This document shows positions 12,131 to 64,000 of a stretch of 64,000 nt of DNA, in pieces (the first letter of the stretch is position 1; the number at the start of each line of letters is the position of its first letter). This DNA is from Entophlyctis helioformis (Eukaryota > Chytridiomycota > Chytridiomycetes > Chytridiales > Chytriomycetaceae): assembly GCA_025526915.1 (NCBI GenBank), contig JAHLKH010000118.1, positions 1 to 64,000 on the forward strand. The letters run 5' to 3'. A model generated the notes under the pieces. That model was given only the letters and a program-made list of their open reading frames with translations. It was not told the DNA's origin and ran no database searches. The position numbers and the translations under genes were made by a program.

Positions 12131-15100
12131 TTATTTGGGTTTGTCCTTTCGGCCAATAGAGGGAAACCATGCCCATCCGCCATCTTTGCCGCTGTTGCCG
12201 TTGCCATTGCCATTGCTGCTGTTGCTGTTGCCACTATTACTTGATACGTCTTTGCCTTGGTTCTGGCTGTGATGATCGGCCACAACAGCCGTCATTGGCC
12301 CTCGTTGCAGATCTCCTCGTGCACTGCCTCCAAAACTCTCTGTCTGCAACACGGGAAGGGATGGCCGCTTGGCGTATCCTGATCCAATACGGCCACCGAC
12401 GTTCAGCTTGGGCAGTCCAAACCGTGATCCCGTTTGAGATCCATCATCTGTGCTCATGCTACTGCTCGACTTATGACTGCCGGGTAAAGATGCGCTTGAA
12501 TGCTGCGGCTGGAGCTGCGACTGTGACTGGGGCTGTGGTATCCTGCCTTGTCCTCCATCAACGTAGACATTTCCTGCTGCTGGTGGCATCATGTCGCCAA
12601 CTTGATCCTCCTCATCCTCGTCTCCATCAAGCTCATATGTCGCCAGGATAACTGGCGTGGCTGGCGGCACGCTGGGATCCTTCTCGTCAACTTGACCTCC
12701 GATGATTGTGACGGGCGGCTTTGCAGATGGGGCTTGCGAAGGAGGCGACCACGTGTCAGGCATGATTGAGCGCATCACTTTGGTTGCCTCAAAGTCTGCG
12801 GCTGTATAGAAAAAGCAATAGCCGGTCCCTTGTGAATTGGAATCGCCAAAGAACTGTCCCAGATCCGACTCTTCGACATGCTTTGCAACAGAACGCGTGA
12901 GTAGATCGTATGGAGGCATGCGCCAATCACAGTGTCAGTTGGCAAGAGCAGCACAAGTCGCAATACAGACACGCGGCGGTAAGCTTACCGAAACGTCTTC
13001 GTCGTCAAACAGCAGCCATTGATTATCGCTCTTGATCAGTGCAACGTAATGCCCAGATTGAGGCCCGCTGCGATGTGGTCCATCGATTTTGTAAACGTTT
13101 GGGATGGTCAAATGCATGGCCAAGAAAAGGACATGGACATCATTTGATGAAGAAGAAAAAAGTGGGTGAGCAGACTCACCTGCCAATGTGCACAATGACG
13201 CCGTGCAAATGGTATAGACGGTCGGCATTGTCCGCGCCGTCAGCCTGGATCATTAGAATGAAAGTCGGATGAGTATCCATACGAATCGTGCACGCAACCA
13301 GCACCCGTGCCAAATGGGCAGCCTTGTTTGGCATACCGTGTTGAAGAGTCGCAGCTCGAGAGGAAATGCGACGCGATATGACAGCTTGCTATAGCGGCCC
13401 AGGTGCTCTTGAAACTTGAACCGCTTGAGATGGACAGCAAGCACGTTTGGGAGACGCTTGATTTTCATCCTGAAAGTGCCCGACCAACGGTTGGCTCAGT
13501 GGTCAGATGGCCTCAAGTGGCTGCTTTGCAGGAGGACGCCACGAGTAGCATATTGCCAGATACCTTTTTTCGGCCTCTTGCAGACTATTGCATGTGTCGC
13601 AGAAAAACTTGTTGCGCTCGCACAGAACTTCAGATGAAGAAAAGTTGCGCAGGCATGAGGATATGGACGAATGCTGTTCGATATCTACAGAGAGGTCCAG
13701 GAACGATTCATCTCGGTTTGTCACCTACCAAGCCGCATGTTAGCATTCGGCGCTGAACAGTACTGAATGGCAACTCAGAGAACGTTTGTCAATCGGCACG
13801 CCAGCCGGCACGCCAGACGTACACATTCGCAGTTTAGACACTTTGTCTCGTTTGTCAATAGCCCTTCAAAGAGGGCATGGATCCAAGTGGACGGGATGTC
13901 CGATGTGCGCGAATCTGGGCATCCAGTAAGCAGCGTGTTAAGAATAAACGGCAAACAAAGAATGCATGGCAGCAAGTAGTACAATCCGTCTTGTTTACCT
14001 GCATTCCGCGCGTCCAGTATGTCTTTGGGAAATCTTTGAGCAGCAATGAGCTTCTCGGTCATTTCCTTCCTTTGCTTGGTTAGCAGCTCGGCGACGGCGT
14101 TCAAAAGATAGTTGAACATCTCGTGTGCATCCTGCTGCATGGTGCTCCGAAAGGCCTCTGTAAGTTGAGCCGACAGTGCGACGGTCGAGAAGGTATGTAT
14201 GTGTGAGTCAGTCGAGATGGCGACGAGATTGAATGCAATGATTGCGAGCTGACCCTGGTGAAACAAAGGCACGACAACTGTTGCTCAGCGTGAGCACATG
14301 CATCACACACCATTTTCAAGCTTGAGTTTTTGGATAAACTGCCGAGGGGGGATGACGCCGGTGCGCTTTTTCTGAGTCGATATTGTCAGAAACAGGTCTT
14401 GCAATGCACTCAGCAATGTGTCGTTGTTGGATTGGTCGATAGATATGCCTTCGATTAAGGCAGCAATACGAGAGCCAGCCCATATGCCACGGCCGCCAGG
14501 ATTTGTTGAACTTGAAGACTGTGATAACAAGCTGCCTGATGCATACGCTGCTTGGCTCGATGGTGCGCCATTTATAGGCATTGTGCTGCTCAGACCGAGG
14601 CCATTGCCCACTGCCGGTGTCGTGGCTGTGGTTGGTATTGCTGTGGCTGTTGCTGTGGCTGCTGTTGCTGTTGCTGTTGCTGGTGCTGCTGTTGCTGCTG
14701 TTGCTGCTGTTGCTGGTGCTGTTGCTGTTGCTGTTACTGTGGCTGTTGCTGTGGCTGTTGCTGTGGCTGTTGCTGTGGCTGTTGCTGTGGCTGCTCCTGG
14801 TGCTGCTCCTGGTGCCAAAGATACTGATCCAGATGTGCCTCCATGGCCCGACCGTGATAAACTGTCGCCAGGTATTCGGGAATCGACTTGGTCGTGGGCA
14901 GCAGAGACAGAGGCACCAGCTGCAGATGCATACGCTTGGCGGACTGCGATGGACTCGCGATTTTGAGGTGCGGCGGCAAGTCCCTGTGTTGTGAGCAATA
15001 AGCTTGGCGGTAGGCCGGCGCTGTCTTCGATCATCAGAGCGGCGAGCTGGGCGGCAGATTCCGGGTAGCTGTAGTTGAGGACACAGTCGCGAAACGGCTT

Positions 15101-15622
15101 GCAGAAGAAGAGGACCTGCATGACCGAGTTGCTGTAGCAGGTGTTGCCAAACTGCCAGCGCCAGAAAACATCACGTCAGTCGCTTGTATGAATCGCGGTG
15201 CTGCAGCATCTGGTCGTCACCACGAGATGGCACGCAGCACCACCGACGTTTTCCAGGCCAAAGAATCGCTCTTCGCCTTGCTGCGACTCGGTAGTGTCGC
15301 CAATGGCACCACTCTTGCCCTGCAGTACACGGCAACATCATACAGTAAGCATACTGTTGCCTCTGCTTGCGTCCTGGCAAGCCAGCCAGCCAGCCAGCGA
15401 ACCAGCCAGCCAGCGAACCAGCCACCAAAAGCAAGGTGGCAGCTCAGCATATGTATGTACAGCAACACTGAGCCAGAGGAAATCGACAGAGTCGCACAGC
15501 GCCATGCAGGAACGGCTGCCACTCCAATGGTGCTGTCCGCCCGCCCGCCAACCATCCATCCAACCAGTCAACCAGCCAGCCAGGCTTGAACGCACCATCC
15601 CGATCCACCGAAACAATGACAT
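12131..15622 (-). CDS. USP12/USP46-type ubiquitin carboxyl-terminal hydrolase
   Basis: Ten exons (15622-15596, 15319-15248, 15151-14311, 14157-13999, 13914-13823, 13724-13564, 13469-13337, 13244-13180, 13067-12989, 12880-12131), 792 aa. It is a cysteine deubiquitinase; relatives (USP12/46, fungal CreB/Ubp9) act with WD40 cofactors. The Cys box [20 protein letters not shown] spans two exons. It continues with [32 protein letters not shown], zinc-ribbon pairs CLNC and [34 protein letters not shown] and His box [19 protein letters not shown]. Between Cys box and fold lies an extra ~200-residue insertion rich in Ala-Thr dipeptides, and a ~230-residue Ser/Gly-rich tail is added. The first 9-codon exon is the least certain part. 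Confidence 0.92.
14632..14802. repeat. GCTGTT/GCTGTG hexamer repeat in the USP insertion
   Basis: Imperfect tandem hexamers that translate on the reverse strand as alternating Ala-Thr. They lie inside the largest USP exon in a region absent from USP12/46 relatives, so expansion has lengthened the protein rather than broken it. Confidence 0.85.
15372..15425. repeat. CCAG tandem repeat in USP intron 1
   Basis: Interrupted CCAG/CAGC units. Similar tetramers recur at 15553-15582 in the same intron. Confidence 0.8.
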
Positions 15623-16427: not shown

Positions 16428-17482
16428 ATGGCCGAAGCACGAGCAAAGCGCAAGCAAGAGGAGCAGCAGAGCAAGGCTATCCAGGAGATGCTTGCATTGC
16501 CGGAAAACCAACTCTGCGCCGATTGTGGCACCAGAGGTACTTGCCTGCCGACGACTCGCGCTCAGAACCACGCCGCGCACTGTGTGTTCTCGCCCGAGCT
16601 CATAGTCTGTGTATTGACAAACGGGCCTGTTCGCACGAATGCAACCAATGCCTCTGGCCTCTCGCCGTCCGCAGGCCCACGCTGGGCATCCGTCAACATT
16701 GGATGCTTTCTGTGCATCCGTTGCGGCGGCCTCCACCGCAAAATCGGGACGCATATCTCAAAGGTCAAATCCACGACGCTCGACTCGTGGACGCCGGAAC
16801 AAATCGAGGTAAACAACGGATGCCTACTCTGGATGCCCGTGCCCGTGCCCGTGTGACGCTGACTGCATTGGTGTGCGTGCCGCTTTTCAACCTGTTGATG
16901 CTGTGCAACCGCAGTTTGTTCGAAGCATGGGCAATCGTCGCGTCAACGAGATGCTTCTGTCGCGAGGAAACGCCCCCAGGGTGAACATTAACAGCGACAG
17001 CGATATGGAAACCTATATTCGCAACAAGTACGACAAGAAGTCCTATTCTCTCCAAGGTCCTGTAAGTCTGTTCCTGCCGTGCTGCGCGCAAACGTTTTCA
17101 ATAGACTGACATTTATGTGTGCACTGTGCGTGTTGATCACGTCCCATAGGACCCGCAGGTCCAGGAGCAGCAAAGACGTGCTGCCAGTGCCGCAAATGGA
17201 GGGAGCAGTAGCAGCCGCCCTGCGACTGCATCCTCCTCATCACGATCTGCCTCGCAGCAGCAGCAGCCAAAGACCTCGCAGTTCACGCCGTCATCCAACC
17301 AGATGGAGCAGCTTCGCCAGATGGGCTTTGAGAATCAAGAGCATGTCCAAAACGCGCTGTTGATCTCTGAAGGCAACCTCGACCAAGCCATTACGCTGCT
17401 GCTTGAATGGAGCCAGGATCCCCGTAGCGCCCCTGCCTCCGCATCGTCGTCCAAAGGAGCCAATCAGCAGCAGCAGCCAAGC

Positions 17483-17529
<47 letters not shown>

Positions 17530-17759
17530 ACAAGCTCCGCAACCAGCTGCTGCTGATTTGCTTGGCGATCTCATGTTTGATGCCCCACCGCTCCAAACGC
17601 AGCCTCAACAGCAGCCTCAAAGGCAGCTTTTGCAGCAAACCGTGGCATTCCAGTTTCAGCAGCCCCAACAGCAGCAGCAGCAGCAGCAACTGGCGCAACA
17701 GCAGCTATTGTCGCAAGCCAACCCCTTTATGCAGGCTCAGTCCTCTCAATCGCAATTCT

Positions 17760-17798
<39 letters not shown>

Positions 17799-18066
17799 TG
17801 CTCAATCCCTTCGCGATCCAGCAGTCCATGCAACAATCTCAAATGCAACCAGACGCGCGCCAGCAGCAGCAAGATCAGCAATCGTTTTTCAACCAGATGG
17901 CTCCAACGCAGGTGCACGCTCAGCCCGCAAATCCGTTTGGTATGTCAATATGCACTTTGGCCACAAGCCCCTAGCAGACCTTGTCATTTTCCTGATACCG
18001 TGTTGTATGTCTACAGCTCAAGTGATGCAGACGATTCAGCCCACTCAACAATTTCAGCAGCAGATT

Positions 18067-18103
<37 letters not shown>

Positions 18104-18606
18104 TGCAATTCCAGCAACAGCAGATCCAACAGCAACAGACAGCAAAGGCCGTTCCCAAAGAATCCATCCTGTCGCTCTTTTCAGCGCCAAACCCGGCGTC
18201 GCAGGGGTCGATGCAGATGCAGATGCAGATGCCAGCGCAACAGCAACAGCAGTATGGTATCTTTGCTGGCCAGCCACAGATGCAGATGCAGCATCCGGCT
18301 ATCCAGCCCCAATCGTATGCAGCTGTCAATGTAAGTTTTTGTTGTTGTTACATGGCATGCTTCATTGACCAAGTGGCGAAACCCTCTCCTAACCACTCGC
18401 TTTATTCGTGTTGCGTTTCATAGCCCTTTCAAGTCGGGACGGCTGTTCCACGAACCATGCCACCAATGCCCGCACAGTACAGTGCGCCATCGCAGGACAT
18501 GACCGGCGACCTCTTCAAGCCCCCGTCTCAGCAGCAGCAACAGCAGCAACGCCAGCAGCAGTCCAAGTCCGAGCTGTTTGCCGATCTTTCCTTTGCATTC
18601 AAGTGA
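16428..18606 (+). CDS. ArfGAP-UBA-polyglutamine protein (Gts1/SMAP-like)
   Basis: Six exons (16428-16536, 16675-16808, 16915-17061, 17150-17939, 18017-18330, 18424-18606), 558 aa. The N-terminal ArfGAP zinc finger reads [27 protein letters not shown]-x2-C-x16-C-x2-C with the catalytic Arg in IRCGGLHR. It is followed by [12 protein letters not shown] and [12 protein letters not shown] domain follows ([31 protein letters not shown]). The rest is Gln-rich with three long CAG tracts, and it ends in repeated FADL/LFKPP-like short motifs. The order ArfGAP, UBA, poly-Q matches yeast Gts1. Expected role: stimulating GTP hydrolysis by Arf in vesicle traffic and endocytosis; the UBA may bind ubiquitylated cargo. 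Confidence 0.93.
17488..18105 (+). repeat. CAG/CAA tracts encoding polyglutamine
   Basis: Near-pure CAG runs at about 17488-17527, 17762-17797 and 18057-18103, in frame as Gln; the third lies in exon 5 across intron 4. Pure CAG runs are prone to length change. Confidence 0.9.
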
Positions 18607-47527: not shown

Positions 47528-50500
47528 TTATGCCAGAGATGCCAACGCAGCCGTGCCGCGCTTGACCCAAAACTCGTGGTCGTGCACGCCGGCTTTGAGC
47601 TCCATGGCAATGATAAACGACGGACGCTCTCTGGAGTCGGCGCAGAAAAGTTAGATACCACGCATTCCACGTCCGGCTTCCTGCGCACCCTGCTCACCTT
47701 GTTCCTGATCGCACGGGGAAATAGTAGAGAGGACAGATGTACACGCCCTTGTTCGGCTTCTTGCGTGCTTCGATGGGCCTGAACTGGATCGGGGGAAGCG
47801 GCGTGATCAGCTCCATCGACCGTGGCTCCTTGAGGCAGTTGTTCTTCTTGTCCCAACTGTCAATGCAATCCATGCACGGTAATCAGCATACGCGGCAGAT
47901 GATTTGGTCGATGCTCTCAGCAGTACCTTGCACCCTCCAGATACAAGCCGCGAATGTAGACCCCATCTTTGGCGCCTTGGTTGACAGGCTCATCTTCCTG
48001 CATTGGGGTGTATTCCCATGCCAGAATGTCCACTGGGACACTGTTCTTGCGCGCGGCCTTTTGGAGCACTGCGGTGAGGAACCCTGTTGGGAATGTGAAC
48101 GCGCCGAGCCAGAACTGGCGTGGCTCATTGCTGCTCAAGCATCACCAGCGAATCCAAACAATGCGTCAGTCACAATGGCTCTCGACAGTCTGCGCAACCA
48201 GTCGTTCATGCAATGTAACGCGTCTAGCTGCGCTTGTCTCACAATGCACACAGTTGACTTACCCTTTGGCCCACTCAGCAAAGTGCTCAATGCGCAGCAC
48301 AAGATCGCGAGTCCATGCAGCCAGCGGCTTGAGAGATGCATACGTTCTGCTCCACAGTGGCGGCACTTTTCCTTCAAAGATCGATCCAAACGTCTCTTCG
48401 AGCTCAGGCGACATCACAACGATTCCCTTGAGACCCTTCTGCAGATCCTCAAGCGAACGCCTGATTTTCTGGAGGAGATCGTTGTACCGCTTGAGCTCTT
48501 GCAGCAACACGACGTTGAAGGGGTTCATGTCGTGTCTGACCATTTGGTAGGTGGCCTCGTAGTCAATGTCGTCAGGCACGCGCTTCAAAATATCTGCGGC
48601 AACTGCAAGAACCTTGTCTTCGCGACTAGCACCGCCAACAACAGAAATCTGCGGCTGAAGGGACAGCAGTGTCTCGAGTATGTTGCCAGATTCACGGATC
48701 TGGCTAGCAATATCCGCATTGGCGTGCTGGCCAAAGACTTCGGGCTTGTCGACCGATGGAAGCGTGGTCACGTACTCGCGGAAGCTCACAAGGTCCTTGT
48801 TTTCCGGGATAAAGTACTGCGCCATCGACGAGAGGTGGTACTGTGGCGTTGTCAGGGCTTCTTCGTTTAGGAACTGATTGATGTAGCTCCGAAGAATGCG
48901 GCGATCCCAGTCGTCTGTCACGCGTCCGCCGTAGTTGGCCTCGGCAATCAGGTACTTGAGAGCGTCCCATGGTATCGCGTCGTATTCGTCCAACAGCACC
49001 ACCATCAGGTTCTCGCAAATGTCAAAGTCCGAGTCGTTGAAGTCGCACACGACATTCCAGCCGAGCGATTGAAACTTTTTGCGCTCAAGCAGGATGCTAT
49101 GGAAGAAGCAGAGCGAAAAGATGAGGGGCCGGTACACGTCCGTTTTGGTGCAGCGATGGAATGCTTCGTCGGTGATCACCGTGCTCAACAGACGCGTCAA
49201 GTTTGCTCTGAGCCCCTTTGGCGGCTCCGTTGTCATCTTGAGACCGACTTGCAAGATCGAGATCGGGAAGTTGGGGTGCGGGCTGCTCGACAGCCACAGC
49301 CTAAAGTCAGGGTGTGGATTCTCGCCTGGGATCGTTTCAATGATCTTGTCCAGCGTGGGCATCCATGAAATCGACAGGTGACAGTTGGCGAGGAACACCC
49401 AGTTGCCCTCGCGCAGACCATCTTGAATCATCCGTGTCGCCTTTGGAGCTTGTCCTTGGCCAAGCGAGAGATGGTTGAAGCGGTCACCCATGTTCTTCTT
49501 TTGCGCCAGCTGGAAGAGCGACGACGTGGGATCAACTCCAGGAGAAAGCACAAAGATGAGCGGCGTTTTGGGCGACGAGTCTGCCAGAATGTCAGAAATG
49601 TCCAGGATCGGCGGCTCGATAAACTTTTGCCCAAGGTTGTTGGCGACAAACGTCGATGCGCAAAAGATGACGCGGTCGGGCCGAAGAGACCGCACAACCA
49701 GCATTTTCTGTAGATCGTTGAGCTTGTTTTCCCAGTCTCCGGGCAGCGCAAGCTCGTCGGGCTCGCTGCTCATGAACCACGCCTTCCATTCGCGCTCCGA
49801 CTGCTCAATCGAACTGACAACGCCTGCAAGAGTCGCCAGGCCATCCAGCTCGGTCAGGTTGTCCCAAGCATCGTCCGTGATCCTATGTTTTGATCGAATA
49901 CGCGCAAAGCAGACAATCAAAGCATTGCGGTAAGCCAACCAGCCCTCCGCTATCTACAAACTGCTGCGGGAGGATCTAATACACACATAGGGGCCGTGCC
50001 ATATGAGCAGAAACATACCATTCAGAGCAGGGGTTGGGTGGCTGTGCGTCCTTGTCCAGAACTTGCCCGCCACGGAGCAAAAAGTCGTACTCTTCCTTGT
50101 TGAGCTTTCCGTTCGCCTCCATAATCTTGACCGTCATCTGGAACGCAAACAGCATCTTGTGCTTCTCAAACAACCCGCGACAAGTGTTCTTGTACACCGA
50201 GTACGTGTGGTAGTCATTGAGGGAGAGGATGCGCTCGTTGATGTCCTCGTACCTTTTGCTCTTGGCAATCGACTTTTCAAACAGCTCGACGTACGCATCA
50301 AGCGAAAACTGGTACATGGGATCCACCGACGCCAAGTCGTTCAGCACAAAGTACAGGATCGACGCCCTCTGTGCAGCCGGACGGTACGCCTCGCGTGCCG
50401 CGTCGATCCGCTTTTCGGTTTGCTCACTGACTACGAGCTGCTGAGTCACCTCCTCGGCAATCGACTTGGAGGACTGAAGCGTGTTGACAAGCTTTTCGTC

Positions 50501-53500
50501 GTCGAGCAGAGAGCCTTGTGCTGTGCTAAGCAGATGCAAAATCTCGTCCTCGAGCTCAATAAGCTTCTTCTTTGCTGCAGCGACACTCGACACAAGCGTG
50601 TTTTTCTGCTCCTCCAGCTCGGGCTTCTCGCGTCGCACAATAATGCCCAGCAGCTGATCTTCGAGACCCTTTTCCTTGACAGCAAAGTTGACAATGGTCG
50701 CCTTGGCAAACACTTCCGGCGAGTACTTGGGGTTTGCCAGCTTGGTGGTAATGTAGAAGCGGAACTCGGGATTGTACTCTACCTCTTTCTCGCCAAGCAT
50801 GATGATGAGCATCCCGCCTTTCTTGATAATTGACTTGTTGAGGATAGGGTCCAGTGCAGGATCGATGGTCTCAAGGATGCCTTGAAGGAGCACCGGCACG
50901 CCAAACTGCACTGCGCTTTCCAGCGTCCGCAAAAAGTCTGGCTGTTTCAAGTCGATGATCTTGAGGTCGCGCTTCTGCTCCATGTTCTTGATCCAGTTGT
51001 TGGCTTGTCCCTGCGGATCAATCATCAGTGGCCAACGCCGACCGCGCGTCACAATAATGCCGTTTTCGGCCGAGAAGGCGTCGCTCGGCAGACCCTGAAG
51101 ATTCCAGTCGCGGATCTCGACTGCCTTGCCAATAAACGCGTCAAACGAAAACTCGGGATTGAACGGGATCTCAAGGGCCTTGATTTGTGCGAGCCAGATG
51201 CCGTTGACGAGAGACTGGCGGTACACGGAGTTGAAGGGTCCGGCATACGACAGGAATGCCGCAGCGAGAAGGCAGTCTCCAGGAAGGTAGCGCATCGCTT
51301 CTTCGTACTTGCGGATGCTATTCTCCCATCGATCGCGCTCGCCAGAAAGTCCCGACACGAGTTTTTCGGCTCTTGACAGTTTGAGCTCTGTCTGCTCCGA
51401 GTCTTGCCTGAGCTTTTCCTTCAGCGACACCTTGTCGTCGTACTGATTCTTGAGCTCGACCAGCTTGTCTTGGATCTCTTGAAGCTTGGACTTGGCTTCT
51501 TTGAGCGTTTTCTGCTTCTTCTCGAGCGTTTCTTGAGCCGCACGCAGCTTTTCCTTCTTTGGCGCAACCTGGCGGAAAATGATGCCTGGTGCAGATATGA
51601 GCATCGCGTTGTGAGTCTGAGCATCAAGCTCCGATGGCAGTGCCGTTCAGGCTTGCGAATTCAAGGCCAACTTACCGTACGTCTCCATGGCACGCACCCA
51701 CATGCACAGAGACTTGGAGGCGCCAGAGACTCGCCCCACAATGTCGGGCTGGAAGTTTTCGTCGGAGCAATACTGCGAGATACGCTTCAGGATCTTGTCT
51801 GAAATGTTGTCCTTGTCAAAGTTGACGAGCTGCTTGATAAAGTACGGGTTTCCGAGCTGGCGCTTGGCTTCGTCCCACGTCGGCTCGCACTTTTTAAGCA
51901 CCATGACAGCTTCCATGACTTTTTCGACGAGCGGTGGAGGCTTGCCGTATGACCGGATTTCGTTGAGATCCTTCTTGTTGATGGCCTCTAGAGCCTTGAC
52001 GGCCGAATTGAGCGCAGGCATCGCAAGATCCAAATCTGCCTGGGCCGCTTCGGCGACAGCACGAACTTCCTCCTCTTCCACGCCAAGCTTTTCTGCTTTT
52101 GCCGTGACGCTTTTGGCCTGCTCGTCAGCCTCGCGCTTTTGCTGCACAATCACAACCAGGTAGTCCTCGCACTGCTTTTGGTACTGGGCCACCTGCTTCT
52201 TGGCGACTTCCAGCTCGACGGAAATCTGCTCGACGTTCTGGCGTGTGTCGTCCAACTTGCTGAGACCGTTCTTGAGCTTGAATGCGGCATCGCCAATCTC
52301 TTTTCGCTTTTCACGCAGCAGCTCGCGATACCCAGTCACAAGCTCGAGATAGTTGATGGGTGTTACGTAGTTGTAGCGCTTCAGCTCTGCAATCATCTTG
52401 ATAGAGGTGTCGACGACGGATGTGTGAACAGACACAAAGACCTGTGAAACGCCGCGCTTGATCTGGTCCGAGCCAAGGTCAACATCGCCCAGATACTTGA
52501 GTGCAACTTCCAGCAGCGCGTCCTCTGGCCATTCCGAGAACCAGTCGATGGTGGTACAGTTGATCAACGACGGAAACATGCGCAGTCGGTTACGGAATGC
52601 CTCGCCAACTGGACTCATGCCGAGAACCACATGGAGATTGCTGCGGACACGCTCAATGAACAGGTTCCAGAGAGCATCGCCGATCTCGTTTGTCTTGGTC
52701 GCCGCCTGAAGACTCTGCTTGATATCGCTCAGCTCGTCGGCAGCAAACAGGTTTGGCACCTGCCGTTCAACACGTAAACAGCCAATCGAGCCAATGTTGG
52801 AGCAGTATCAGCCAATGCCATCCCAATGATCTGAAGCAGAAAGGGATGCATAGAGTGCCAAAACTTGCCTCGCCGCTACTCAGGATATTGCTCAAGTCTT
52901 CAAGGAAGCTGTTGTTGATGATCTGCTGGTCAGTAAACAGGAACGTTGTCGGCTTGCTGTCAATGCCCGTTTGTCTGTATAGCTTCTTGAGGTCTTCGCG
53001 GAAGTCCGTGTGGCGGTAGTGCTTCGAGATCTTGATCTGAAACACGTTGCAGCCAACGACATAGGATGCCAGCCGGGTCAAGGATTGTCTGCCCGAGCCG
53101 CCGACGCCGATCAGAAGAACGTTGCCGCAGGGCTGGCGCAGGATTCTTGTGATACGGCAAATGTGTTCGATGGCGTCAAAGAAGAGCACAAGGTCGATCT
53201 GCACAAAGCCGGGCTCCATGTTATAGTCCATAAGCTTTTCCTCCATGAAACGTTTCAGCTTGTCCGTATCGGCAATCTCCTCGTACAAGAGATTATCTGT
53301 GTTGGGACTCATAAAATCTCCAAAGAGCGGCAGCCGTTTTTCGCCGCACAGTTGCTGAAGCGACGAGCTAAAGTGCGAGCCAAGCTTATCGTCGATCAGC
53401 TTCTTGAAAAACTCGCGGTCGGGCTTGTCCACGAGGCGGTCGTGGAAGACGCGAAGGAGCTCGTGCACCCAGAGCTTGGTGACCGTCTCGCGCGAGTCGT

Positions 53501-56500
53501 AGTATTCGCGATTGGCACGAAGCAGGCCCTGGAAGACTTTGGAAATGTCGCGCAGGTTGAACAGATAGTGCATCTTGGCCGGCGTTGGCAGGAGCTGCGC
53601 AACCACAGTGTGGTAAATTTCGATGGTGGCGTGTGTGATTATATCACCCAGTGGCTTGACGTCTTCTTCAAAGTCCTGCAACTTTTGGTTGATGATGGTG
53701 CCAAACACGCGCGTGATGGATTGCTCGTTGGGGAACGTCATGTTGAGCACATTGAAGCGTGCTTGGATGCGCGGACTGATTGGGTTGCGGCCACCGCCCG
53801 GCGGGCCCATAGCCGCAACCATCAGGATGTCGTTGAGGTACTTGAGCGTCTGCTTCTGGCGATCATAGCAGAATCCATAGTCCATCCAGTGCCGGATGAA
53901 CTCGAGAGGCGGCTGCGAACCAAAAGTGTCCTTCATCGGCATGTTGAAGTCGTCAATAAATGCCAATAGGTGCTTGCCGCCCACTGGAACAAACACGTTC
54001 TTGGTGCGCTTCTCCAGCTTGCCCTCGATGATGTTTTGCACTCCGCCCGACGACGTTTGCGCAGATGTGTTGATGACAAGAATGTTGAAGCCAATGTCTT
54101 GAGAAAAGATGACGTTCTGGACGAGTGATGTCTTGCCCGTGCCAACGTCACCAACGAGCAGAACGGGATTGCGCTTCGAAATGAGCGACCGCAAAATGAA
54201 CTCGTTGCGGACCGTGTCAATGGTCGGCACAAAGATCTTGTAAAACGGCACGTTTGGAGCATATCGCCATCCGCTTGGCAGCTTATCTTCCCACGGAGTC
54301 CAGCCTTTTGTTTGCTTGTCGACATAGTACTCAAAGATGGTGTCTTTGCTTGGGAACTGGCCTTCGATCTCGCGAAGGAATGAGTCAAACTTGTGCCGAC
54401 TCTCTTCAGTAAGCGACCCGCCGAGAGCCCAGATAACCGAAAATAGAAACCAAAGCTCGACCATGCGTCCGTGCGTGTCGGGCTCGTCTGGATTGACGCC
54501 GTTTTCTGCAATAATCACATGGCATTCAAGCCCCATCAAGGCAGTGTGGTTAGAAGTCACATCCTTTGCATGTAAACCAAAGACACCGTTGCAAACCGAG
54601 GTCGATGGGCGTGCGTGCTTACCAAGGGTAGCAACCGAGTCAAACAGCCGACAGAACGACCTGATAGCGCTTGCTTCTGGTACAGGGACGAGTTCTGCGC
54701 ACGTGCGTCTGAATTCGAGGGTTTGGGCAATGTACTTGTCGATCAACCGACGAATAATGTCAATGGACTGCTTGTCGTCGCGCGTTACAATCCAAGACTC
54801 GACAAATGGTTTCCATCCAAGATCCTTGTAGTCCATGTAGATCATTCCGCAGCGGCTGACAGTCGCAGGAGAAGCGGTCGACAGATTCTCGACTTCAAAC
54901 AGGAGCGAGACTTGCTCAGGCAGAGCTATGCGCTCGCCGTTAATCAGCGTCAGAACCTTGTTGTCGTCCAGCACAGTGTTGCCAACGACGACTGGCCGCG
55001 ATGCTGCAAGGACCGTGCCGTCTGGCGCAGTTTCCTGCACGCGACGGAACACGATGAGGTTCTGCTTCGTGGGCACCGTCACGCACCACACGGTGCCGCT
55101 CCATGTCCTGGTTGTGCACTCGTCGCGGACGTGAAGCTGCGGCTGCGCGTCTTGCGGCTTGTCGCTGAACCACACCTTCCAGTGGAGTGCTGATGCAGCA
55201 ATGGGCACTGCGCACTGCTTGATGCCGTCCTGGTTATCGCCAGATTGTGACTGCAGCTCAAAGTGTGTCGAGAAGCCAGCGAGCAGCAGCACGCGAGTAA
55301 GCTCGTCACGGAATCTCGCAGACGACGTGCCGATGCAGTCGTCGCTCTCTTGACGGCGGTTGTCATTGGCATTGCAGCCTGCAGCGTGTGATCCGTCGGC
55401 GCACTTGAGACCGCGAACAATGGCCCGGAGCGCATCGCCGCTCAGATGGCGATGCACCCAGTACCAGAACCAATCGACAGACTTGACGTCCTCTGCAGCC
55501 GGAGGCGACGGCTCAGACATGGACGTGTCATGCAGACGCGCAATCGTCGCCAACACATCAACGCGTCTGGCTTTGCACGGAGCATCTGCACTAGGCTCAG
55601 ATGCAACACGCTTGGCTGGAGGACGCTGCTGAGAAGACTCTGGCGGCTTGTTCTCTGCGTCCTTGGCAAGGTGCGGTGGACCGCGAAGCAGCAGATCAGA
55701 CAGTTGCTGCTCGACACTCTCTGCCGGCACCACTGGTCTGTACCGTCCGAGCGGAACACCACTGCCACGCATCAGTGCTCCCTCCAGTGCAGCGACTTCG
55801 CACCAATAGCCCTTGTACTTGTGGCCGTACTGGCGAGCAAAGTAGCTCCACCAGCAACGCGCAGTGATGGTGAACGAGCACTGGCCGCTGGAACGTGCCG
55901 CGGACTTGAAGTAGCCATCGCATTCGGTCATATCCCGGTCTGCCAGTGGAGCATCTTTGAGCTTCTGCAGTCCAACGGCAGCGAGAAGTCCTTCGAGGTA
56001 TGCACAGTCGCGAGGCTTGGCCACAGCAAAGCATACACCACGTTGGGAAGAGCCGAGATGGCCATTGCCGAGCCAGTAGCCGTACAGCTCGAGGAACGCG
56101 TACGCCTGCTCTGCCGTCTTGAGACCAAGCGCATCCATGAATGGCAACGACAGCAGATCGTCCTGCGCCGGCATGAATCCGAGCTCGGCATTGGTGCGCA
56201 GCTGTGCCACCGTGCTCTCGTCCTGCTCTCCGGCTGCGACAACCTCGTCTGCGCGGAGGATGCGGTATGCAGGCGGGCTGTCGACATCGGTGCGCCACTT
56301 CCGCTGGCCGCTGGTGCTTTGGCGGGTTGGTGCAACCATGGCGTACATGCGGTGGTTGGCGGTTGGACTGAGATCCACGTTGTTGCACACAGTTCGGCTT
56401 CCTAGACGCGAATCCTTGTGCACAGCCGCTCTGCCCTTGAAGTCAACAAGCGTGTGACGGCCCGTCTTGATCGTCAACTTGTCCTTTGTGATGGCGTGGT

Positions 56501-59500
56501 ACTCCAGACGACCGTCCACGTAGCAGGCAATCTCGAGTGTGTCGTGCTGCTTAAAGTGGCGCTGCACTTCGGCGAGCGTCATGAAGCCCTCTGCAGTCAA
56601 GACTTCATGGTCGGTTGCCGGGAAGCAGTTCATCGACTCGATCCAAAGTGTATCCACAGGGCCATCAAGCACAATCCACTTTTGGTCCTTGCGCTCATCT
56701 GCACACGCTGTCCTCATCACGCTCGACAGGACGCCATCGGCCCACTCGTTTGTGTTGATGTTGAACTCGCCATACAACTCTGCCAGCGACAACGCTTTCG
56801 GGTTGACAGCGTATGTCTTGGCGGGAACAAACCGGTCGGCAGCTGTCTTGGAAAGCCGCGCAAACGTCCCCTGCAAAACCTTCCATACAGTCGTTTTGCC
56901 TGACCCCGTCTCGCCAACAATCATGACTCCGTGGCGACTCGTCTTGGTCTCGTGCAGTTGGATTATCTTGGTGACCATGCCATCCACGGCCTGGATGTTG
57001 TTGGCCTTCATCTCGTCGAGCATTGCACCTTTGAGCTCGGCATAGTCTAGACTCGTGACTTCGACACCCGGGAACAGATCCGACAGAATGGCCATGAACA
57101 GTGGCACGTCCTCGGCCGTCAGCTTGGGGATGTTGTTGTCGCGCATCGACAGATAGAGAACAACGTCGTCAGGCACTGTGGAATCCATCCGCTTGCGTCC
57201 ACCAGCGCTGCGCAGAGCAGACGTCAACGCGCGGAGTCCAAAGTCGTAGTGGTCCTGCTTTGACAGCTGCTGGATGGCCAGTTTGTAAAGCGTGTCGACC
57301 TTTTTGGAGAGAATGCGAGTGTTGGAGAAGCCTTCGGCGAAAAGCATGATTTCGGCAATGAGCGCAGAGTCGGGCACCATCATCGACACGGGCCGGAACA
57401 AGGACTTGAGGTTGTCTGGAAGCTCGACGCGGCCAGCATATCCCTAATCATTGACGCAAGCGGTCACAGCAATGTCAGCATAGGATCCTCGACGCCATCA
57501 TATTGCAACAGTTCAACAGCAGGCTAGCTAGAACACGCAAACTGCGTTGCTGTAGGTCGTGCGCCAGTTACTTACTGGATTCATCGTGATGAAGATGCCG
57601 CAGGCTGTATTGAGCTTGATCTCGCGACCCTCGAACACAAAGACGCGCGCGTTGCGGGAAATGGCAGTCAGGATGCACGAGATTTGAAGTGCAACGACAC
57701 TCAGCACCTCGATGTCAATACGGTTGAACTCGTCAAAGCAGCCCCATGCGCCTGTCTGTGCAAGACCACTGAACATGCGGCCGATCGACTTATAGTCGAG
57801 AGCCTCGGAGCAGTTTTGCACAATGACGTATTTCCCCAGTGCTTTTCCGAGATCCTTGACCGTTTCCGTCTTCCCCGTTCCGGCAGGGCCCTGCGGGCTT
57901 CCTCCACGGAACAGGTGGAGTGCCGTCGTCAGCGTCATGTAGCAGCGATCTGTGAGCGGTGTGATGACGAGACGATTGTTGCTCAGAAACTCGAAGCCGT
58001 AGCGGAAATGGGTGTTGATCTGACGGATATAGCAGTCCTCGTCGTCCTTGGCTTCCTTTTCCCAGTAGAACCGCAGCTGACTGAGCCAATCAAAGGCATT
58101 GACACCCGAGCAGTTGGATTTGACCATGCGGTCGATCACATCGCGAGAATGGACCTCAATGGTGATCAGAGCAATGAGCTTCTTGCGGTCAACCTTGCCA
58201 AGCGGGCTGCGCACAAGATCTGCCAATTTCTTGAGGCTGGATATCTGCTTCTTCTTGAGACCTTTGAGGGCACTTTTCTCGCCCTTTTCGACCTCCTGGA
58301 GAGACTTTGTGCAGTCTGCCGTCCATGTGATGAGACCAGACGTAATCAGAAGCATGCCTGGCCAGTCCTTGAGCCACTTGTCACGCTTTGCCTTTTTCAG
58401 ATTGGCGAGACAGCCAGAGAGCTGTTTTCGGAGCGTGACGCGCATCATTGCCTCAATGTCCAACAGCCAGAGCTCCACGGGGCCTTTCCCAACACAACGT
58501 TTGTGCGTGGAAGATTGTCAGCCAGTGTAAAGAGCAGAACGGAAAAGAAAGATTCACGAAGCATCGTCAGAGGCAGGTTAGATGAATGATGAATCATGGA
58601 CAGAGAATACCCATACAATCCACCCATACACCAGCACGCTGATGCAACATGACTTCCAGACGGCCGGTCTTACCTTCAACGGCGACAGGTGTCGAGAAGG
58701 GAACGTATTCTCCCTCTCCAGAGTGCATTCCCAGTGCTTCGTTGTGGCGGCGGCCATCTGTGCCGGCCATGGCAAGCTCAAGCTTGTTGATATTGTCAAA
58801 GCATTTCTTGAGATGCGGTTGCACTGAGTTGGGGTCCTTGGCCTGGCCGAGGATCTCGAGAAGGTCGTCATTGGACAGAAAGTAGAAGCGCGGGAATGCC
58901 TGACGCTTTGTTTCTAGGTACATGTCGAGCGATTTCTGGATCTTTTCGAGTTGCAAATTCATGTCCGTGAGCGTCTCCATCATGCCTGGAATGTGGGTCG
59001 CTCGGAGCGCGTTTCGGTCAGAGAGGATTTGCGCGAGAATCTTGGCCCACGAGGCATTCACGCTGTCAAACACCGCCGACTCTTTGGGGAGCTGCTTGCG
59101 AATGTCCTCTGTGCCGACAAAGATGTTCTCCAGATACATCCACTGCCGCTGCACAAGCAGAAGGAGCTCGACCACCTCGACAATGTGCGAGAGTGTCCGC
59201 TCCCAATGGTCGACTTGGGCCTCAAACGCCAAGAAGAATTTGGATGCCTTCATGGACGACAGCGTGACCTGGTTGTCTTCGAGTTGCTCAAACAGCGAAT
59301 CCGTGCTGCGGATCTTGTAGTAGCCCTTCTCTTCCTTGTACGCGACAATGTCCAACTCGAGGGTTAGCCATGCCTCCTTGATCGTTTCAAGGCCTTGCTC
59401 GATCGACAGCTCCTTTGATGCGGCAGTCGAGAGCGTCGAGATTGTTTCCGTATGCTGGTCGAGCCCGAGGTCAAGGATCTTGTCTAGTGTAAAGTCTGCG

Positions 59501-62500
59501 CCTTGGGGGCTGAAAGTTTTGCCAACCTCGTCCATGATCTGGTTCCAGTGGCGGTCACGCATTGCAGGGTTGCGCAGATCGAGCAGCAATGGAATCGTCC
59601 GCTTGGTCTGGTTGACGCGCTCCTTGAGGCTTGTGAACACATCCCAATCCTTCATCTCCTTGCCCATCTTGGCCAGGCGACGCACAAACTTCTGCACAGA
59701 CTCCTCAATCTCTGTTGCGTCGAGCGAAAGGAATGGCCGCAGCCGCCAGCCGTCATACGCAGCATTCCACTCTTGAGTCGCCTGCCAGACTTGTGTGAGC
59801 AGATCGAGATCAACCGCCATCATCTCCATGTCTTTTGACGAAGCCTGCTCGATCTTGAATACGCCAAGGCCCTTTTTAAGCACACGCTCTTGGTTTGCCG
59901 CAGCTGAAAGCATGGCACGGCCGTCGCTGATTGCTTTGAGTGCCTTTTCGACGCCGAAACTGGCCAAAAATGGCCCTCGGACGGCCAGATCCTCGCGCAT
60001 GTTGGCGGTCTGCTTGACAAAATCGTCAACAGAGGAGAGGAGATCGGCCTTGAACTTGGCCTTGGCTTCGTGCAAGTAGCGCTCCGAGTCGGTCATGGTT
60101 TGCTGGAATGCGGCCCAGATTGCTGGGAGCGTCTCGAGTTTGGCCTTTTCGTCCTCCTTGATCTGCACCTCGTACTTTTCAAGGATCTCGTACATCTCGT
60201 GGATCGGGCCAAACTGCGATTCAATGGAAGAGAGATCGCCCTGCAGCTGCGTCAGAAGCGAAAGGCTCTCGCTCAGCTGCTCAAGATCCTTTGGTGGTGC
60301 GCGCAGCTTTTCGGCTTTCTTGGAGAACATGTCGTGGAGGTTGTTGAGCTCGGTGGCGGCATTGGCATTGAGCAATGTCGTGAGCTTGTTTTGCCAGGCA
60401 CTGCAGTGGGCCACAAGCGCGTGCTTCAGTGGCGAGCAGTCGAGACGCACAAAGTTGACGTTGGTGAGCGTCTCTTCCTTTTGCGTGTTGTTGGCCACCT
60501 CGTTGTAGCGGTTGATGTCGGCATCAAATGTCGACAGCGCCGGCTTGAGCTTGGCATAGCGACGAATAAAGGCGTCCTTGTTGATTTCCCAGATCTCGCG
60601 GTAAGAGTCCCAGTTGCGAAGGTACGCCTGGCACTTTGTTGCGTTGTTGGACATGCCAGTCTGGATGTTGGCAAAGATTTTGAGAATGTCTTCCTCGTTG
60701 GCGATGATGTCGTACATCTTGCCGGCCGTGGCAGCCGTCGTCGACTCGGGAGAAAGCGTCTGGGCGAGTCGCGGGATCACCATGATGGTCGAGATCATGT
60801 CTCGCGCGACCTTGTTAACCGTTTCCTCCAATCGATGGAGCGTTGGATTGAAGTCAACCTTTTGCATCTCGAGCACGACATTGACTTTGAACAGCGGATG
60901 AACCTCGCCGCCACCGTCGCGGTTCTTGCCCTCGCCATTGATGGCCTTTGAGATCTCAAGCAGCGAGCGACGCACAGCCGAGCGGAGAGCATCTTCCAGC
61001 TTGGCGTCAATGCTCTGGATGTAGCGTACCCAGTGGCCATACACCTCCTTGCCGTCGTTTCTGAAGACTTCGTATGTCTGCTCAAGAGTGCGTTTGATGT
61101 CGTCGTACGCGCCAGAGAGCTTGTCGCGCACCAAAGCCTGGTGGCGCTGCTGCGTTGTCTCAAAGGTCTCGAGGTCGTAGATGCGCTTGTTCTCGATCTG
61201 CCACAGAAGCGTCTGTGCGATGGCTGCACAGTTTTGCTGAATGCGGCGATCTGACTCGAGAAACTCGGTCACCATCTTTTGGACGTCGTGCGAGTGGCGG
61301 CGGCATTCCTTGACGAAAAAGTCTGTGATGCCCTTGGATGCCCTGCAAAACAATTGTTTTGTTGTCGCAGGTGGTTGCAACACATCCAGCAGAGCAGTAT
61401 CAGCATCGAGAGTGCAAATGAAACGCTAAGGGCACAGTCTGCCTCGAAAAAAACCAGTCAAGAGCGCACAACTCACCATGTCAGACTGGTGACACCAGGG
61501 TTGATCTTGCGGTCCAGGAATCGAATGCGCTCTTTAAACAGCCAATGCTCTTCAGACGTCAGAGTCTCCATGATGCTGTTGTAGTCGCGAACAACGAGAA
61601 GCACGTTTTCGCGAAGGATTCGGAGCTCTTCCTTCTTGCTATAGATCTCTTGCACATGAAACGGTATGTCGGCCTTGAGCTTCTGAAAGTAAGAAATCTC
61701 TGCAAACAGCCGTAGAAGCTCCTTGTCAAACTTCATCTCGAGCATTTCACCGGGCCGATGAGCCATAAGCATGCCGTCAAGCCGCTCGATGAGGTTGGAT
61801 CCAATGTTGGTGGCCCACTCAATGTGCGTCTTGGAGTTGTACTCTTCAAGCGACGCAACCAGCGGATCGTACTGAGCCTTGGCCTCCTCTGCCAAGATCG
61901 TGTGGGGAAGGTAGTACGCGTTGGCGAGGCAGCTCATTGAGCTCTGGATTCGGCGGAGCAATGCCCGTGCCCAGTATGCCGACCCAGCAAAGTCGGGCTG
62001 GGAGCGCATAATATCTGGCGTCTTGCGATGGGTCTCAAACTCGATCTTGACCGTGTTGAGCTCTTGCAGCAGGATCTGATAAACGTCGGCTGTCTTCTTC
62101 TCCACGGTTCGCTTGATCGCCTCGCGCTTGGCCAAATGATGGAAAACATCCAGAAGCTCGACGCCAGCCTCGACTGTGGATGCGCCTTCAAATGCAGAGA
62201 TGATCACATTCTGCATCATAACCTCGAGATCTTTGACGCCCTGCTTGAAGTTGTTGTAGTCGTCGTGCCACCGCGTCGCCTTGACGTCCAGGATGTGTTT
62301 GCGTATATTCCAAAGACTGGAAATAAGCTTTTCAAAAGCAAGCTCGATGTCCTCAAGGCTGTGCGCGTTTCCACGGGATGGACAATCAAGCAATGTCGAC
62401 GGTGAGTAAGCCCGTCAAGGCCAAGCCGGTCATGAGAGCCAATCACCATGAAAACTTTGCAGAGTCCGCCGTCTCTTTACCTTTTAGCGATTTCAGGTCC

Positions 62501-64000
62501 GCGAGATCCGCCAAAGAATGGAATGGGTGCCTTTTCACCGCCCGACAGTTTACGAGAGAACTGGATCTGCCCTTCGCACACCTCGAGCAGATCGCGACAG
62601 CGCTGCACAAAGGCATCAATCTGCGCAAAGATGCTGCTCTGGTCAAAATCCCACACGCCCTTTGCGTATCTGACAATATGGGCACACGTCCGCTTATAGA
62701 TCTGCTTCCACGACTCGCCGCAGTTGATGCTGTCTTGCAGGCTTGCCATGCTGGCTTGCACGTCGCCGTGGAAGATGTCGTCGAGCGAGATTTTGGCGCA
62801 GCAGCGGCGGATGATCTCGTTGCTCACCTTGCGCAGCAGGCTTGTCAGACGCTCCTTGGTGTTGTAGTACTTGGAGTTGGCCCAGATGAGGCGGATGCAA
62901 TTGAGCAGCTTTGGGAGAATGGCCGGGATATGCTTTGGCTCTGCCTCGGCAAGAACGCGGCAAGGATCGCTCAGGGTTGACAGGAACTTGAGGTTGTCCT
63001 GGGCCTGGACGGTTCCTTCCTGGATCAGATTCGACAGCCGCAGAAACTGCTCGAGGTACGACGACTTGGCCATGTCAAGGACGCGGATGATACGCTGGAC
63101 GTCGGAGCGGTTGAGCTGGTCCGAAATGCCAGACAGATCGTCGCATCGGCTGCTCCAAAACTGAATCTCCTCCAGGGGTCCCGAGTTTTCGGTGGTTTCC
63201 GAGGTGTGCTGGTTGTTGACGACCTCTTTGATCTGGCGCGTCCAGTGGATGAGCAGGGATTCGAGACGCTGCACCACATCCTTGACCTTGACGACCGCTT
63301 CTGGGTTGGACAGATCCTCGTTGGGCACGTACAGGACGGTGTGGCCCTTGATCTGGAACGTGGTGTCCGTCAGAAAGGCCATGAACTTGTGAAGCTGGTT
63401 GTTGAATTCTTTGCGGACACTATCTGGCCAGCGCTTGTTGTCAAGAAACATGGGGACAAAGACGCCCTGCATGAGACGCAAGAGGCTCTCCATGGTGTTC
63501 TTGGAGACGCTGCCGTACTGAACCTTGGCCTCAAAGTTGGCCTCGGTCAGCTGGCTGTCGTCCCCCGAGGTGTCACGGATAAAGTACATGAGCTCCTTGA
63601 TCTTTTGAGATGTTGTCGGCAGCGAGGTTTGGACATGGAACTGGGCAGGGCGGACGGCCTCATCAACAAAGAGCACAATCTTGTTGACGGCAGCGTCGGT
63701 GAGAAACTCGCGAAGCAGGCTGTCGTGTTCCTCAGACCACATGGTCGCGTCGTACGAGGCGAGCACAACAACGCTCTTGAGCCGACGAGCAAGGCTGTCG
63801 ACGTCGACAGGGGGTGGCGGCGGGTTGGCGGCCATGGACGCGAGCGACGTGGCGCGTGAATCAGCTGACTTGGACGCGTCAGTGCCGTCAACATTGTTGT
63901 TGCTGGCGCGCTCGCTGGCCATACCCGGCTGGCCCTTGCCGTCGCTACCTTCGGGGCCGTCCTGTCCGTGTGAGCTTCCGTTGCTCTCAAGGCCGCCTTC
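47528..64000 (-). CDS. DNAH2: Axonemal dynein heavy chain, DNAH2 type (5' end probably beyond the window), intein-bearing
   Basis: Twelve exons: 64000-62481 (open to the edge), 62358-61477, 61342-58674, 58483-57576, 57443-54623, 54505-52869, 52759-51676, 51585-50019, 49882-48263, 48130-47927, 47856-47698, 47630-47528. They give 5057 codons, or 4507 without the intein; human DNAH2 has about 4430. DNAH2-specific text includes LESLLIHWTRQIKEVVNNQ, QRQWMYLENIFVGTEDIRK and DMYLETKRQAFPRFYFLSND. ATPase sites: AAA1 GPAGTGKTETVKDLG with CFDEFNRI, AAA2 GETGSGKTT, AAA3 GDVGTGKTS, AAA4 GVGGSGRQSLTRLA; then the stalk coiled coil and the C-terminal cap. In Chlamydomonas the DNAH2 class forms one chain of inner arm I1/f. 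The reading frame is open to base 64000, and the Met at 63922 could be internal. The intron 52868-52760 is GC-AG. Confidence 0.96.
54978..56627 (-). mobile_element. Intein with LAGLIDADG-type endonuclease domain in the DNAH2 AAA2 module
   Basis: A 550-codon in-frame insertion splits the conserved phrase DTLWIESMN/TVLDDNKVL of dynein AAA2; removing it restores the family sequence exactly. Block A: CFPATDHEVLTAEGFMTLAE (Cys1). Block B: VDLSPTANHRMYA (84-96, with the TxxH pair). Endonuclease motifs: LYGYWLGNGHLG (181-192) and LRAIVRGLKCADGS (400-413), then GTSSARFRDELTRVLLLAGF (433-452). Block F: GTVWCVTVPTKQNLIVFRR (511-529). Block G: RPVVVGN (544-550), followed by Thr as +1 nucleophile. Odd points: Asn replaces the catalytic Asp in the first endonuclease motif, block F lacks its usual His, and the penultimate residue is Gly instead of His. 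It should self-excise after translation. No intron lies inside it and its ends are not GT-AG. Confidence 0.93.

Follow-up and report, generated by a model that had tools for sequence, protein, structure and literature searches.

The window analysed here comprises 64,000 nucleotides of the chytrid Entophlyctis helioformis (assembly GCA_025526915.1, contig JAHLKH010000118.1, positions 1 to 64,000). Its minus strand carries a gene for a dynein heavy chain, recognised by the Pfam domains AAA_6, AAA_7, AAA_8, DHC_N2, MT and Dynein_heavy, and within an exon spanning AAA1 to AAA4 this gene contains an in-frame insert that we interpret as a putative intein. The insert (54978..56627) consists of 550 stop-free codons between ...LWIESMN and TVLDDNK...; it begins with Cys (CFPATDHEVLT...), ends with Asn (...ASRPVVVGN) and is followed by Thr at the +1 position. 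The same limits, codon number and boundary residues had been given in a preceding sequence-only reading, which left out the strand, and they are borne out here. All features are compiled in Table 1.

Table 1. Features of the dynein gene and its insert (positions in the window; residues counted from the first residue of the insert).
Feature	Position	Strand	Basis
DNAH2-type dynein heavy chain gene, N-terminal end beyond window	47724..64000	-	P0005 (5166 aa), Pfam, tblastn extent
N-extein part of exon (AAA1 end to AAA2 Walker A/B, ...WIESMN)	56628..57443, exon edge approximate	-	Pfam AAA_6; DNAH2 best PDB match up to site
Putative intein, 550 aa, in AAA2 of DNAH2	54978..56627	-	open frame, block residues, AF2/Foldseek/VIA intein match, same-site copies
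C-extein part of exon, +1 Thr (rest of AAA2, AAA3, start of AAA4)	52805..54977, exon edge approximate	-	Pfam AAA_7, AAA_8, Dynein_AAA_lid
Block A, residues 1-13, nucleophile Cys1	56589..56627	-	C1 25/25
Block B, residues 84-96, T89-x-x-H92	56340..56378	-	T89 and H92 25/25
Predicted LAGLIDADG endonuclease domain, about residues 171-496	55140..56117	-	VIA-align to I-DmoI entries
First LAGLIDADG-like motif (LYGYWLGNGHL), catalytic Asp position 188 = Asn	56058..56090	-	D 11, N 3 of 25; AF2 helix 172-188
Second LAGLIDADG-like motif (AIVRGLKCADGS), Asp411 kept	55389..55424	-	D 17/25; AF2 helix 397-411
Block F, residues 511-530 (GTVWCVTVPT...), invariant Trp-Cys	55038..55097	-	W514, C515 25/25
Block G, residues 543-550 (SRPVVVGN), terminal Asn, penultimate Gly	54978..55001	-	N550 25/25, G549 22/25

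DNAH2 is the best solved-structure match both for the upstream open reading frame (ORF) of 943 amino acids and for the 272 amino acids directly before the insert, in agreement with the host named by the sequence-only reading. In the DNAH2 chain 8j07_k9 the shorter piece has its counterpart in residues 1908-2179, likewise 272 in number, which places the insertion point at residue 2179. On solved DNAH17 (9fqr_I4), the pre-insert piece of the window ends at residue 2217, and the post-insert piece of P0006, an insert-bearing dynein from another source, starts at 2217. The insertion point lies downstream of the stretch WIVLDGPVD, which represents the Walker B region of AAA2; a location behind Walker B had been proposed by the sequence-only reading and is upheld.

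Stops are present on the plus strand across the insert, the other two minus-strand frames have 8 and 13 of them, and the open frame was kept in 0 of 20,000 first-order Markov resamples. The insert has a GC content of 60.5%, compared with 55.8% and 52.7% for the exon parts on either side. As the host gene does have introns, its frame being divided over several ORFs, an unrecognised spliceosomal intron was considered, together with an assembly artefact. The intron was rejected because the insert ends in TGCTTC...GGCAAC instead of GT...AG and because its reading frame is under selection (see below); the artefact was rejected because three contigs with different flanks hold the insert. Relatives at the protein level, found at the same site in other sources, speak against both, and we regard this explanation as hardly credible.

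An alignment of 25 rows was built from 20 of 33 family regions, two stretches of P0032, a single one from each of P0033 and P0034, and a Cwc24-like member; P0021 was omitted, its BLAST match stopping short of the intein end. C1, T89, H92, W514, C515 and N550 occur in all 25 rows and G549 in 22. BLAST matches to the window intein determined where each row begins and ends, so that agreement at C1 and N550 is favoured, whereas T89, H92, W514 and C515 are free of such bias. Over 19 chosen insertions of the family (dynein counted twice), the +1 residue is Thr in 11, Cys in five and Ser in three, so that a nucleophile, a requirement of splicing chemistry, follows in 19/19. Together with the absence of the insert from homologous hosts at this site, the T-x-x-H motif, the Asn-Thr junction and the Hint fold, Cys1 gives the insert the features of a class 1 intein. 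Class 3 inteins lack a nucleophile at position 1 and carry W, C and T at B:12, F:4 and G:5. Assignment to this class was rejected: although block F has an invariant Cys, C1 is invariant, the residue two after His92 is Met (24/25), and Val, Ile or Leu predominates at positions 546-548 of block G.

The Hint fold was obtained from an AlphaFold2 (AF2) model, which matches inteins by Foldseek and by VIA. Over its whole length the model matches the VMA1 intein of Saccharomyces (PI-SceI) and the archaeal inteins TliVMA and PhoVMA, at 10-15% identity in the structural alignments; by profile, no sequence match to these VMA inteins was seen. Searches for PHROGs, for Rfam families at the gathering score and for tRNAs gave none.

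Protein and DNA searches of the E. helioformis genome revealed three dynein copies, namely the one in the window and one each on contigs C137 and C269, plus a divergent relative on C142. The C137 host is DNAH10, with an ORF open over 3139 codons; the C269 host is of the outer-arm beta type (DNAH9/17) and is the best match of the P0006 exteins (69%). DNAH2 as named by the sequence-only reading is therefore right, but not the only host. All three inserts occupy the identical AAA2 codon boundary (N/C...GN/T, slashes denoting junctions), which in DNAH10 lies between ENMN and TVMDDNR. The DNAH2 copy differs from the DNAH10 copy in 40 of 1650 bases and from the C269 copy in 37 bases and two gaps, and the latter two differ in 48 bases and two gaps, i.e. 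the three inteins are about 97-98% identical in DNA. Their 300-base flanks are 35-55% identical without gaps, and the 30 bases next to the site 57-80%. Near-identical inserts in such diverged flanks suggest that the dynein paralogues had separated long before the inserts arose.

At least 16 dynein contigs match an AAA1-AAA2 query, and the site was read on 14 of them (weak places on C17 and C252 remained unread): three sites are occupied and 11 are empty. The empty-site contigs C36, C122 and C408 show no difference in the stretch that they share, and C60 matches them at 99.8% identity, so that the empty sites represent at least eight distinct genes. The +1 codon specifies Thr at all three occupied sites and Ser at three empty ones. 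When an intein-free second DNAH2 was sought among the compared loci, the nearest paralogue (the C36/C122/C408/C60 group) turned out to match DNAH6 best, the other paralogues not having been typed individually. This repeated DNAH6-type stretch, located about 3 kb from the contig end on each of C36, C122 and C408, may represent a recent duplication, chromosome-end copies or assembly redundancy.

Between the DNAH2 and DNAH10 copies, 22 codons differ synonymously and 18 non-synonymously, corresponding to a non-synonymous rate (dN) of 0.0145 and a synonymous rate (dS) of 0.0581; in the splicing segments dN is 0.0039 and dS 0.0519. The pair is under purifying selection. With structural boundaries, non-synonymous changes affect 2 of 223 codons in the splicing part and 16 of 327 in the endonuclease part (Fisher p 0.012; 0.024 with other boundaries, and 0.08 for the table of synonymous versus non-synonymous changes alone). 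The splicing part thus looks better kept, on modest numbers.

The blocks and the two LAGLIDADG-like motifs that the sequence-only reading had pointed out were recovered by alignment and in the predicted structure, in which the two helices lie in the fold expected of a LAGLIDADG homing endonuclease. The Asp at the helix end is a catalytic residue in these enzymes. Here the second helix ends with Asp411, and the first with Asn188. A change of this kind should, as is said from work on PI-SceI, cripple cutting, and present endonuclease activity is doubtful. All three E. helioformis dynein copies share Asn188, so the substitution is most simply older than their last common source; the dynein inserts of P0006, P0007 and P0008 carry Asp at both motifs. 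The enzyme may still be active, a different enzyme may have acted in trans, or the copies may have spread in some other way. For the homing scenario Asn188 is the most serious difficulty; the intein call is unaffected by it.

Apart from Asn188, several observations limit our interpretation. Class 1 inteins usually, though not universally, have a penultimate His, which is replaced by Gly549; the reference list of PMC6805012 includes a structural study of an intein that lacks this His. The Hint and LAGLIDADG domains expected from the sequence-only reading were not retrieved by curated profiles, the insert matching 0 Pfam families at E <= 0.1 and 0 NCBIfam families at E <= 1. Hedgehog and bacterial intein-like (BIL) Hint domains likewise match the AF2 model. 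Finally, the reading frame of the DNAH9/17 gene on C269 is broken within the intein and in two more positions along the gene, and the last 103 codons of this intein copy differ from those of DNAH2 by five non-synonymous and four synonymous changes; this copy is either decaying or poorly sequenced. All of these except the missing profile match, and Asn188 as well, would be compatible with a Hint domain that cleaves without ligating, leaving a DNAH2 precursor cut in two or a gene that is being lost. Such an outcome is improbable in our view, as Gly is the norm of the family at the penultimate position, Cys, Ser or Thr follows every chosen insertion, the DNAH2 and DNAH10 copies have kept their splicing segments conserved, and both host frames are open on either side of the insert. 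The open frame running through the insert would also suit an extra domain that is tolerated unspliced in the motor. However, the insert interrupts the ATPase core of AAA2 behind Walker B, its conserved residues are those of splicing, and its relatives reside in many unrelated hosts, which makes a retained domain very improbable.

The same dynein site is occupied in other sources. Protein searches, in which the candidates sharing most words were scored, identified at least six insert-bearing dyneins: P0006, P0007, P0008, P0033 and the two of E. helioformis. Five were among the 28 matches of one search (7980 candidates scored) and P0033 was added by another (16 matches), whereas a search confined to proteins of about 300-960 amino acids (8000 candidates scored) gave 11 matches and no dynein. 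The insert sits at the identical site in 6/6. By comparison with the PDB, the hosts P0006 and P0008 are DNAH17/9; of the Entophlyctis loci that were compared, C269 comes closest to the exteins of P0007 and P0033. In a tree of 38 rows, in which 12 of 35 inner branches are weak, the inteins of P0006, P0007 and P0008 group with the two of E. helioformis (100/100), P0006 being the sister (99/90); P0033 forms a long branch, for which the approximately unbiased (AU) test does not reject membership in the dynein clade (p 0.48). As the hosts outside Entophlyctis look DNAH9/17-type, we infer as the simplest history a residence in DNAH9/17, from which the intein recently reached DNAH2 and DNAH10 within the Entophlyctis line.

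Alternatively, the copies could stem from separate outside arrivals, or from ectopic gene conversion without an endonuclease, as the Asn shared by all three at the first catalytic position might suggest. The copies are, however, mutually closest among the sequences found, those in DNAH2 and DNAH10 being 97% identical and the next best sequence 53%, and identity ends at the insert edges, the diverged 300-base flanks offering little homology for conversion to use. We consider these routes unlikely, albeit worth keeping in mind.

The reading of the insert as a putative intein with a LAGLIDADG endonuclease domain inside AAA2 of DNAH2, already advanced from the sequence alone, is supported by the frame, the site, the block and +1 residues, the predicted fold, the three copies, purifying selection and the relatives at the same site elsewhere. 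Taken as a whole, a full-length class-1-like LAGLIDADG intein that splices out of DNAH2 and was recently copied from a DNAH9/17 address is very probably the best explanation; here we infer splicing, endonuclease action and direction of spread. According to our proposal, DNAH2 would be translated as a single precursor in which the Hint domain folds. Cys1 would attack the Asn-Cys junction, the N-extein would pass to Thr+1, and cyclisation of Asn550 would release the insert, the exteins being joined as ...WIESMN-TVLDDNK... to restore an intact AAA2 module. The three dynein motors concerned would become functional only once the insert has excised itself. The endonuclease would formerly have cut DNA encoding the conserved AAA2 motif E-x-x-N/T-x-x-D-D-N; in the lineage of E. 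helioformis, the element would recently have copied itself from its ancestral address, probably the outer-arm beta heavy chain (DNAH9/17), into the matching sites of DNAH2 and DNAH10.

The wider family comprises relatives about 30-45% identical over aligned columns. Its hosts, whose names are read from motifs where neither a Pfam label nor a database supplies them, include Prp8 (at least two sites; Coemansia and others), DNA polymerase B (PolB), a 5-oxoprolinase-like HyuB, a kinase, an EF-hand PP2A-B-like protein, RFC, an Rpn11-like JAMM protein, Mo25, a WASH-complex protein and others (P0040, P0041, P0047, P0043, P0044, P0039, P0016, P0042, P0020 and P0012 for the RFC, Rpn11-like, Mo25, WASH-complex, HyuB, kinase and PP2A-B-like cases). 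The best viral match is a predicted DNA polymerase of Pandoravirus inopinatum in BFVD (34% identity, 582 columns, E 7.9e-43); a few short patterns, which leave room for a relative, found none in viral contigs or prokaryote genome contigs. PF05203, PF05204 and PF14890, seen on Prp8 matches, were dropped as parts of this family after an hmmscan of 11 members alone (two from Prp8) gave only LAGLIDADG_3, in three of them; the three domains probably derive from other inteins that the matched Prp8 proteins also carry. These data point to an intein family whose members are not identified as inteins by the profile libraries tried, present in fungal genes, many other genes and a Pandoravirus polymerase.

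Further intein-like elements were seen in the E. helioformis genome, in which PF05204 had no match. The divergent relative on C142 (L010:4140-5744, minus strand) has stretches 46% and 33% identical to the window intein (E 1.5e-22 and 7.2e-12) and the junctions ...CKDYKETGY/CLSEDSQLL...RPVVVGN/CGYGDSCKFMHDRG; its host is a CCCH + RING protein, presumably Cwc24/RNF113-like. A Prp8-like gene on C79 (L061) shows by eye two classic intein-like boundaries, ...VVHN/CREILRLT and SEAWR/CFSPETLV, and an RPB1-like gene on C17 (77.7-78.8 kb, L062) a segment starting with Ser and ending with Asp before TAETGYIQRR, also by eye; PF14890 matches on both were under the cut-off. Among the junctions of P0009-P0048, the residue before the intein is Asn at 10 of 13 distinct Thr/Ser sites and Tyr at four of five Cys sites, as well as in the Cwc24-like member; four tree rows with Tyr/Cys junctions form a separate group (100/99). 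This bias may reflect a need of splicing or a DNA target (AAC/ACN). Elsewhere in the window, positions 14303-15175 and 17150-18423 hold long coding-like ORF stretches of simple sequence (alternating Ala/Thr, poly-Gln).

With three paralogues occupied and at least eight empty, E. helioformis provides a natural experiment on homing specificity; the near-identical copies bear on how recently inteins jump between non-allelic genes, and the occupied dyneins on how cells live with motors dependent on protein splicing. A more far-reaching idea, which we regard as a long shot, is that a dynein-adapted intein lineage hops between motor genes via the AAA2 codons, splicing acting as a shared gate on assembly of DNAH2, DNAH10 and DNAH9/17. 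Metals have been proposed to slow the splicing of a Prp8 intein (PMC6805012). If the idea were true, the two heavy chains of the two-headed inner-arm dynein (DNAH2, DNAH10) and an outer-arm chain (DNAH9/17) would assemble only after splicing, and any signal that slows splicing, such as metals, would restrain the motility of zoospores all at once.

Compared with known systems, the insert resembles the VMA inteins in having a Hint fold with an inserted two-motif LAGLIDADG domain, and differs from them in its low identity and in its host, which is a V-ATPase subunit in their case and dynein here. With fungal Prp8 inteins it shares a nuclear host and a conserved site (PMC5784728, PMC6805012), but the Cryptococcus Prp8 intein combines C1 and TxxH with a penultimate His (PMC6805012), whereas the dynein-intein family mostly ends in Gly-Asn. 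A likeness to the Pandoravirus PolB inteins (PMC6950457) is seen in the best viral match, the predicted polymerase in BFVD, and related PolB inteins occur in the same family tree; the host there is a viral polymerase, not dynein. The nuclear hosts tabulated in a 2018 survey are Prp8, VMA1, RNA polymerase, ThrRS, glutamate synthase, chitin synthase and eIF5B, with no motor protein, and its main text mentions neither dynein nor kinesin (PMC5784728), consistent with the sequence-only reading, which named no dynein among the known hosts. In the titles and abstract openings listed from the literature searched on inteins, dynein and chytrids, we likewise found no earlier report of a dynein intein, subscription papers being outside its scope. 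Movement between genes of one nuclear genome has been proposed for the inteins of glutamate synthase and chitin synthase, which are 48.3-56.9% similar and have unrelated hosts (PMC5784728); the dynein copies, in contrast, are 97% identical and occupy one homologous site in paralogues. Inteins of paralogous RNA polymerase subunits likewise inhabit a eukaryotic paralogue family, but are described in PMC1635734 as occupying six sites and as having, in general, no close relationship with one another, whereas the dyneins hold near-identical inteins at one site. What is new here is a motor-family host with several paralogues occupied at one site; the design is the known one of an intein.

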